In this document: piece after piece, positions 6,518-8,914 of the stretch
Numbering within the stretch: position 1 is the stretch's first letter
How the letters are laid out: each line of letters opens with the position of its first letter
NCBI GenBank assembly: GCA_012519085.1
Contig: JAAYQX010000020.1
Location: 1 to 39,476, forward strand
Length of the DNA: 39,476 nucleotides
From: Clostridiaceae bacterium
Lineage (GTDB): Bacteria > Bacillota > Clostridia > Saccharofermentanales > DTU023
Direction: 5' to 3'
The notes under the pieces: generated by a model
Told to the model about the DNA's origin: nothing
The model's input: the letters and a program-made list of their open reading frames with translations, nothing else
Database searches by the model: none
Program-made: the position numbers and the translations under genes

Positions 6518-7123
6518 ATGGCACATTATTTTGATCCAGAACCTGAATCGGAACATCGCTATCGGCGCTTCAAGGCGGAATTCGGAGGGGAGATCTTTGC
6601 CTTTTGCACCGATAGCGGTGTTTTTTCTGCTGCCGGCATCGACCGCGGCACAGCGCTGCTGATTGAAACCGTGTTAGCTTTTGAGCCGGCAGCTTTAGGT
6701 GAGGTGCGCCGTTTCTTGGATCTGGGCTGTGGTTTTGGAGCAGTGGCGGTTATCTTCAGCAAGCTGAGACCCGGATGGGAGATTGTTGCTTCTGATGTGA
6801 ACCGAAGGGCGTTGGATCTGACTCAGTGCAATCTGCGCTCGAACAATGTGACCGCTCTGATTGTCGAATCGGACGGCTTCGAGTGTCTAGTAGGTAATTT
6901 CGACCTAATATTACACAATCCACCTATTCGCTGTGGTAAGAAAACTGTGTACAGACTGTTTAAAGAAAGTTATTCTGCTCTTAGTCCCGGAGGTAAGATG
7001 TATCTTGTCAACCGGAAACAGCAAGGTGCGGCCTCGTCTGTTGCCGAACTTAGCCAATACTTCTCAGAGGTAGAAGTAATAAAGAAAAAGAGCGGCTATT
7101 GGATTATTTGTTGCACTAAATGA
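6518..7123 (+). CDS. RsmC-like class I SAM-dependent methyltransferase
   Basis: 201 residues. The N-terminal part holds a C-T-D-S-G-V-F-S segment typical of the MTS family. The SAM-binding loop is D68-L-G-C-G-F-G74, an acidic residue follows in ASDVN (D93), and N134-P-P-I137 is the catalytic motif of N-methyltransferases that modify bases, as in RsmC (16S rRNA guanine-N2). The length matches single-domain Gram-positive members such as YbxB. The exact target is not known. No Shine-Dalgarno site is visible before the ATG. Instead TGCTATTAT, an extended -10-like sequence, ends ten bases upstream, so a very short or leaderless transcript is possible. The downstream IspF-like gene starts 18 bases after its stop. 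Confidence 0.85.
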   Translation: MAHYFDPEPESEHRYRRFKAEFGGEIFAFCTDSGVFSAAGIDRGTALLIETVLAFEPAALGEVRRFLDLGCGFGAVAVIFSKLRPGWEIVASDVNRRALDLTQCNLRSNNVTALIVESDGFECLVGNFDLILHNPPIRCGKKTVYRLFKESYSALSPGGKMYLVNRKQQGAASSVAELSQYFSEVEVIKKKSGYWIICCTK

Positions 7124-7141: not shown

Positions 7142-7630
7142 ATGCAAGAATATATTTATCTTCAATCCATAGGACAGGACAGCCATCGTTTCTCAGACGA
7201 TATGAAACGTCCTTTGCTCTTAGGCGGCATTGTTATCCCCGATGAGATCGGTCTGGCCGGCAATAGTGATGCCGATGTAATATTGCATGCTTTAACTAAT
7301 GCACTCAGTGGCCTTTCAACAGTGGTGATCTTAGGACCTGTGACTGATGAAATGTGCCGGAACGGTATTACCGATAGCAGGGAATATGTTCGCAAGGCTC
7401 TGTCTACGCTGGGTGATATTGAGCTTTTGCACTTGTCCTTTACCGTAGAGGGCAAAAAGCCAAAACTGTACCCCTATCTGTCAGAGATTCGTTCATCTAT
7501 TGCAGAGCTGACCGGACTAAGTTTAGAGTCTGTTGCGATTACAGCAACCAGCGGTGAAGATCTTACAGCCTTTGGCCGTGGTGAAGGCATCCAGGTCTTT
7601 TGCCTGGCTTCCGCCCGTTATCCACTCTAA
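7142..7630 (+). CDS. IspF-like protein with altered active site
   Basis: 162 residues, the usual length for 2-C-methyl-D-erythritol 2,4-cyclodiphosphate synthase (MEP isoprenoid pathway). Conserved features are D13-S-H15, GGI-IP, S42-D-A-D45, H49-ALT and a C-terminal A-T-x-x-E block followed by GRGEGI. D13, H15 and H49 match the E. coli zinc ligands D8, H10 and H42. Two important positions differ. Asn41 replaces the His (E. coli H34) of the HSD motif, and Ile63 replaces the Asp (E. coli D56) of the GDIG motif. The FPDTD loop after it is also missing. Fold and metal site look intact, but normal activity is doubtful. It may be a diverged paralogue or an altered enzyme. No other MEP gene is in view. 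Confidence 0.75.
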   Translation: MQEYIYLQSIGQDSHRFSDDMKRPLLLGGIVIPDEIGLAGNSDADVILHALTNALSGLSTVVILGPVTDEMCRNGITDSREYVRKALSTLGDIELLHLSFTVEGKKPKLYPYLSEIRSSIAELTGLSLESVAITATSGEDLTAFGRGEGIQVFCLASARYPL

Positions 7631-7744: not shown

Positions 7745-8914
7745 ATGCGCGTGATTTTACATTCTGATCTCAATGCTTTTTACGCCAGCGTAGAATGTCT
7801 GTACAAGCCTGAGCTTCGCAATATACCTATGGCAGTGTGCGGTGATCCTGCTACCAGGCACGGTATCGTTCTGGCCAAGAATGAACTGGCCAAGAAAAGC
7901 GGGGTGAAAACCGGGGAGGCAATTTGGCAGGCTCTGGCCAAATGCCCACTGCTGGAAATTGTAGCACCACAGGGACATCTATATTTGCAATATTCCCAGT
8001 TGGTTCGAAGTATTTATGAGGAATATACACCTTATATAGAACCATTTGGTATTGATGAATGCTGGCTTGACCTGACCGGAGCCGAACGCTCCGGTGTAGA
8101 GATTGCTGAAGAAATTCGCCGGCGGATCAAATATGAGATCGGACTGACAGTATCAATCGGTGTTAGTTTTAATAAAGTCTTTGCCAAATTGGGCAGCGAT
8201 CTCAAGAAGCCCGATGCGGTCAGTGAAATCAGAGAAGAAAATTTTCGCACAATAGTCTGGCCACTGCCGATACGAGCGCTACTGTTTGTGGGTCGACAAA
8301 CTGAAAAAAAGCTAGGCGCGATTAATGTGCGCACAATAGGTGATCTTGTGCGCTGCGGCCCAGATTTTCTGCGACTGAGACTAGGCAAAGCGGGTCTGAT
8401 GCTTTGGCATTATGCAATGGGCCTCGATCGAGGTGAGGTCGCTAGCTCCGGCGCTTATCCGCAGGTTAAATCCATTGGCAATAGTATGACCGCGGCCAGA
8501 GATCTTTACACGGAATCTGAGGTTAAACAGGTCTTGATGCGCCTGACCGATGAAGTGGCATCCCGTCTGCGTGAGCAGGAGCTTTGCTGCACAACCGTTC
8601 AGATCTCATTGCGAGATAGTGAGCTATTTTCCTGGGAGCGACAGTGCAAACTAGAGCGTCCGACTCAGTGTTCAGCTATTATTTTAGCGGAAGCGATGAC
8701 CTTGTATAAAAATGATAAACGCAGCAATCGTCCTTTGCGTTCATTGGGAGTGCGCACTACTGATCTCTGTCGAGTTGGCAACAGTCAGCAGATATCTTAT
8801 CTTCCTGAACTACAAGAGGAGGAACGCTGGTTGCGGTTAGAGCGTACTCTCGATAGTTTGCGCTGCCGTTTTGGTAATAAGGCGGTTTTAAGGGCATGTC
8901 TGATGTCAGACTAG
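7745..8914 (+). CDS. dinB: DNA polymerase IV (Y-family translesion polymerase)
   Basis: 389 residues. Copies damaged DNA during the SOS response. The palm motif HSD8-LNAFYASVE17 and the catalytic pair D104-E105 in FGIDECWLDLT are present; GIDECWLD is a common clostridial variant of SIDEAYLD. A helix-hairpin-helix part (about 180-235) and a C-terminal little-finger domain follow. The ATG at 7745 has AGGAG nine bases upstream. Two LexA boxes in the promoter region make SOS control very likely. It ends 18 bases before the convergent 8933-10738 gene. Confidence 0.95.
   Translation: MRVILHSDLNAFYASVECLYKPELRNIPMAVCGDPATRHGIVLAKNELAKKSGVKTGEAIWQALAKCPLLEIVAPQGHLYLQYSQLVRSIYEEYTPYIEPFGIDECWLDLTGAERSGVEIAEEIRRRIKYEIGLTVSIGVSFNKVFAKLGSDLKKPDAVSEIREENFRTIVWPLPIRALLFVGRQTEKKLGAINVRTIGDLVRCGPDFLRLRLGKAGLMLWHYAMGLDRGEVASSGAYPQVKSIGNSMTAARDLYTESEVKQVLMRLTDEVASRLREQELCCTTVQISLRDSELFSWERQCKLERPTQCSAIILAEAMTLYKNDKRSNRPLRSLGVRTTDLCRVGNSQQISYLPELQEEERWLRLERTLDSLRCRFGNKAVLRACLMSD

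Follow-up and report, generated by a model that had tools for sequence, protein, structure and literature searches.

Does an IspF-like protein that has lost several residues typical of its family still work as an IspF? IspF is essential; it catalyses a step in the synthesis of isoprenoid (terpenoid) precursors and yields 2-C-methyl-D-erythritol 2,4-cyclodiphosphate (MEcPP). The question is raised by one gene in the window, that is, in the whole stretch of 39,476 nucleotides analysed here (contig JAAYQX010000020.1 of a Clostridiaceae bacterium). An earlier note on this DNA described an IspF-like frame with D13, H15, H49 and the GRGEGI block kept, with Asn41 and Ile63 at the places of E. coli (Ec) H34 and D56, and with the FPDTD loop lost. 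Our alignment confirmed this description. The note offered two readings, namely that the gene is the organism's only IspF or that it is a paralogue with a new function.

The family assignment was examined by profile searches. The protein matched PF02542 with an E-value of 2e-32 and 113 bits (cut-off 26.7), and it scored 127 bits against the NCBIfam equivalog TIGR00151 (ispF; cut-off 116.45). The features of the locus are listed in the table. In the place of E. coli FPDTD (61-65) the window protein has TDEMC in the alignment, and the loop is shorter by one residue. The earlier note had missed the change of D46, a ribose contact, to N53 as well as about a dozen further switches specific to the clade described below.

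Table. Features of the ispF locus, in window coordinates; the clade consists of the 98 variant members and the canonical set of 60 proteins.
Feature	Position	Strand	Remarks
RsmC-like class I methyltransferase gene	6518..7123	+	immediately precedes ispF in the majority of own-family genomes
ispF, divergent type, 162 aa	7142..7630	+	ATG start, intact frame; sole ispF match of the genome; TIGR00151 above equivalog cut-off
Codon Q12 (Ec F7, cavity lining)	7175..7177	+	Gln in 96/98 clade members
Codons D13-S14-H15	7178..7186	+	Zn ligands D8 and H10 kept; S14 in place of axial-cavity V9
Codons N41-S42 (Ec H34-S35)	7262..7267	+	His to Asn; 2-phosphate-binding Ser kept
Codon H49 (Ec H42)	7286..7288	+	Zn ligand kept
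Codon N53 (Ec D46, water-mediated ribose contact)	7298..7300	+	Asn 98/98 clade; Asp 60/60 canonical
Codon I63 (Ec D56, ribose O2' contact)	7328..7330	+	Ile/Val/Phe 98/98 clade; Asp 60/60 canonical
Codons 66-78, replacing flexible alpha2-alpha3 loop (FPDTD)	7337..7375	+	clade motif [AST]-D-x-[LMI]-C; 66-73 predicted ordered helix
Codon E103 (Ec I99, axial cavity lining)	7448..7450	+	Glu or Gln in 98/98 clade members
Codons E139 to I150	7556..7591	+	Mg/Mn ligand E135 (= E139) and GRGEGI aperture (G145-I150) kept

Homologues were collected and 158 IspF proteins were aligned. They were split by the residue at Ec position 56 into 60 with Asp (canonical) and 98 with Ile, Val or Phe (variant), and position 46 tracked this split perfectly, with Asp in every canonical and Asn in every variant protein. 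The 158 proteins thus form two classes with no intermediates at these two positions. The other variant switches are Y/F7 to Q, V9 to S, H34 to N (in all but one member), L49 to S, I57 to L, P62 to D, D65 to C, L76 to Y, N93 to H, D95 to S, I99 to E or Q, K130 to T, T134 to G and G138 to T. The Zn ligands Asp, His and His were present wherever aligned in the clade, the second-metal position Ec 135 is Glu in 98/98 variant members, and the cytosine-side cis-Pro is invariant in the clade and kept in the window protein. The substitutions are therefore shared by a clade, and the case that the changes occur in this sequence only, which the earlier note had named as refuting, is excluded by its 98 members.

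A tree was built from 72 variant and 53 canonical rows with the 16 signature columns removed. The two sets fell on opposite sides of one branch with an SH-aLRT of 100; the tree search was a quick one and had no bootstrap, and 1.25 changes per column were drawn on either side of the root. Several canonical rows were long-branched and none of them fell inside the variant clade. Judged from alignment and tree, the window IspF belongs to an old, separate clade of the family. One gammaproteobacterial variant member (L188, genome G628) keeps H34 while the rest of its signature is switched, which makes H34 independent of the other signature changes. Its close relative L189 has Asn, and position 34 has accordingly flipped inside the clade.

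The roles of the changed residues are known from solved IspF structures (PMC2151065, PMC3927217). In these, Zn polarises the beta-phosphate, which the 2-phosphate then attacks; the 2-phosphate is bound by the backbone amides of H34 and S35 and by the S35 hydroxyl. D56 makes a contact to the ribose O2', the contact of D46 to the ribose runs via a water molecule, and the H34 side chain holds a flexible loop (Ec 61-71) via the carbonyls of residues 63 and 65 (PMC2151065, PMC3927217). Given these roles, the changed residues are those that position the substrate, and the residues of the chemistry are kept. The description of the protein as lacking "two key catalytic residues" was hence right about their absence and overstated in calling them catalytic, as D56 binds ribose and H34 holds the loop. 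The His34-Ser35 pair is found in 96% of IspF sequences (PMC3927217); the variant clade has Asn-Ser in its place, except in L188. The pair is commonly conserved, non-catalytic and not defining for IspF. Likewise, the loss of Asp56 marks a subclass and does not exclude a protein from the family.

The fold was examined with AlphaFold2. The monomer model of the window protein, made from a 29-row alignment, had a pLDDT of 93.9 and a pTM of 0.91, and it matched IspF crystal structures with Z of about 23 over 150+ residues. A helix was predicted at residues 66-73, where it covers most of the stretch that the flexible loop would take up, a contrast that rests on published crystal descriptions of canonical IspF. 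In this model the ordered helix, with the near-invariant D69 and C72, would take over the task of the loop. For the ribose contact of D56, no replacement residue was identified in the variant clade. Structure searches found no solved structure of any clade member. Compared with canonical IspF/YgbB (E. coli 1GX1, B. subtilis 5IWX, Burkholderia 4C8E), the variant is alike in fold, Zn ligands, the Mg-binding Glu, the Ser of the His-Ser pair, the GRGEG aperture and its MEP context. It differs in that H34, D46, D56, F61-P62, L76, D95, K130, T134 and G138 are switched in concert, and, as read from the alignment, in a shortened flexible loop and a seemingly polar lining of the axial cavity.

Since the ribose-hydroxyl contacts D46 and D56 (PMC2151065, PMC3927217) are replaced in 98/98 variant members, we explored the possibility that the protein is an enzyme of the MEP pathway preferring another form of the substrate, with another nucleotide, a deoxyribose or a modified erythritol. 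However, the IspD residues contacting the cytosine and ribose of CTP, as taken from B. subtilis IspD (PMC5099578), are kept in the variant-IspF genomes, so the upstream substrate CDP-ME should be normal; the making of an altered nucleotide upstream was rejected on this ground. The IspE of the window genome also passes the equivalog cut-off once its two pieces in frame are joined, and the invariant cis-Pro on the cytosine side is likewise at odds with a different nucleotide. We consider this explanation improbable. This IspE (L166:567-1673) carries an insert by which the match to the ispE profile is interrupted between model positions 45 and 54, and the same break occurs in two other genomes of the genus.

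More than a dozen switched signature positions might also be expected of a paralogue outside the MEP pathway, the true IspF then being encoded at another place or absent. Copy number speaks against this. In the window genome, an assembly of 1.58 Mb in 62 contigs at 92.4% completeness, the window gene is the single PF02542 match, and profile searches found ispD, ispE, ispG and ispH. In its own family 34/38 genomes have an IspF match, as do 26/26 in a further set of homologue genomes that overlaps the first slightly, and every matching genome has exactly one. This single-copy pattern of the relatives argues against a second ispF in the missing ~8% of the window genome. HMG-CoA reductase was absent from the window genome and from 25/25 genomes searched, with the same search positive in five control genomes, and rescue by the mevalonate route was rejected accordingly. 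Of the two readings offered before, that of the organism's only IspF was thus borne out.

The location of the gene in other genomes tells the same against a paralogue of new function. A similarity search of public genomes gave 34 homologous loci. At 26 of them ispD lies within the flanking sequence retrieved (up to 5 kb), convergent or collinear, and several loci have ispF, ispE and ispD clustered. A 421-aa frame in one Thiomargarita MAG joins IspD (PF01128, 215 bits) to a variant IspF (PF02542, 122 bits). This is the IspD-IspF order of the bifunctional IspDF proteins (Campylobacter 1W55, Helicobacter 8XHU); unlike them, its IspF domain is of the divergent type, and the window gene is monofunctional. 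In addition, one near-complete genome of the order, the relative G043, has no match to IspF and none to IspD, E, G, H or HMG-CoA reductase. Single in every matching genome searched, and linked or fused to MEP genes in relatives, the variant is very unlikely to be the paralogue of the earlier note; we rejected that explanation on copy number and linkage and rate its chance lower still than that of another substrate.

Several further observations concern these pathway genes. In the window genome itself ispF is unlinked to ispD, the two being on contigs C58 and C47. A Lachnospiraceae MAG has an IspE (GHMP-kinase)-IspD fusion frame directly downstream of its variant ispF (L039:5459-7009). One genome, G006, at 91% completeness, has ispD, E, G and H with no IspF match, which is probably an assembly gap. 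The open frames that hold IspH (G000:C49:26943-27779 and relatives) are 675-1002 aa long in most relatives and 931 aa in the window genome, and IspH appears, by stop-to-stop frame length only, to be fused to a further long protein.

That the gene is decaying or inactive, as the absence of residues that about 96% of IspF sequences share (PMC3927217) could suggest, is highly improbable and already contradicted by the conservation data: the window ispF is under strong purifying selection (dN 0.057, dS 0.63 and dN/dS about 0.09 against an 88%-identical homologue), the new invariant residues are common to two phyla, and variant frames are intact in nearly all genomes tested, with one match, in G069, carrying a TAG. 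The earlier statement that the frame is intact and the gene maintained agrees with these values. Because of the dN and dS values and the recurrence of the substitutions across 98 clade members, one of which keeps H34, they cannot be put down to chance or sequencing error. A viral origin of the variant was rejected, as none of the viral contigs searched encodes a relative of the window IspF.

We infer that the window gene is very probably a working MEcPP synthase, the only one of its organism, from the old and separate clade. This reading is favoured because the gene is the sole IspF and under purifying selection, because ispD, ispE, ispG and ispH co-occur with it, because relatives show linkage and fusion, and because the metal ligands are kept. 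The protein would act as a trimer, in which Zn (D13, H15, H49) and Mg (E139) would align the beta-phosphate of CDP-ME 2-phosphate; the 2-phosphate would attack it, and CMP and MEcPP would be released as in E. coli. The ribose and erythritol contacts of D46, D56, H34 and the FPDTD loop may be taken by N41, N53, L64, D69, C72 and Y82 as candidates, and an extended, ordered alpha2 helix would stand for most of the flexible loop.

The axial cavity is a second region of change. In canonical IspF a hydrophobic cavity on the trimer axis can bind geranyl and farnesyl diphosphate, and a feedback role of this binding has been suggested and is unproven (PMC2151065, PMC3927217). Its lining in Burkholderia consists of Y9, V11, I101 and Y141 (Ec 7, 9, 99 and 139), with V3 and L155 (Ec 1 and 153) as the floor (PMC2151065, PMC3927217). 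In the variant clade Ec 7 is Gln in 96/98, Ec 9 Ser in 97/98, Ec 99 Glu or Gln in 98/98 and Ec 153 Thr or Ser in 96/98. Ec 139 is mostly Ala, Gly or Asp, an uncertain assignment as a Phe at 140 could substitute, and the R142-E144 aperture is mostly kept. With Q12, S14, E103 and S157 the cavity of the window IspF would be polar and ill-suited to a prenyl chain, and the binding of isoprenoid diphosphates in it is probably lost or altered. We tentatively propose, at a confidence just short of even, that the clade represents a second natural solution of the IspF active site, one that makes MEcPP without the ribose-binding Asp and the flexible loop, with new substrate-holding residues and with a polar, Glu-containing axial pocket for another regulator or none.

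The distribution of the variant was surveyed. In the window's own order, an uncultured one of Bacillota, every IspF sequence that was read proved to be variant. In a phylum-wide draw of 299 genomes the variant was confirmed in two only (G110 and G152), both of one further family; the other low-scoring matches fetched were canonical, and the remainder was canonical by score, not all being read singly. In the Beggiatoa/Thiomargarita order 37/43 genomes had a match; each of the 30 that were read is variant, and the remaining seven have similar scores. Among Gammaproteobacteria drawn for the survey, 5/217 matching genomes score as variant, the two types being separated by a wide gap (205-267 bits versus at most 114). 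The variant is the sole IspF in the uncultured Bacillota order and in Beggiatoa/Thiomargarita relatives. Its spread over the two phyla surveyed suggests horizontal transfer at some point, in a direction that the tree leaves unsettled.

IspF has been called evolutionarily rigid (PMC10663253), and its active site so conserved that any model might serve structure-based drug discovery (PMC3927217). The variant clade is a natural counter-example to this rigidity in an essential enzyme. Provided that it is active as we infer, it indicates which residues are dispensable for IspF chemistry; it would also predict a different inhibitor sensitivity, and it offers a natural experiment on a regulatory role of isoprenoids bound in the trimer cavity. 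What is new is that an enzyme regarded as rigid has been rebuilt in a coordinated way; the pathway itself is not new. We found no description of a divergent IspF class, or of IspF in Beggiatoa/Thiomargarita, in the open-licence literature searched; as few subscription papers are included there, this absence is weak evidence.

Of the two neighbours pointed out earlier, the methyltransferase gene is common beside ispF in the family. It is a conserved neighbour by position, and a functional link is putative. The Y-family polymerase gene (7745-8914) that follows ispF is local, occurring there in the window's own genus and in one other only.
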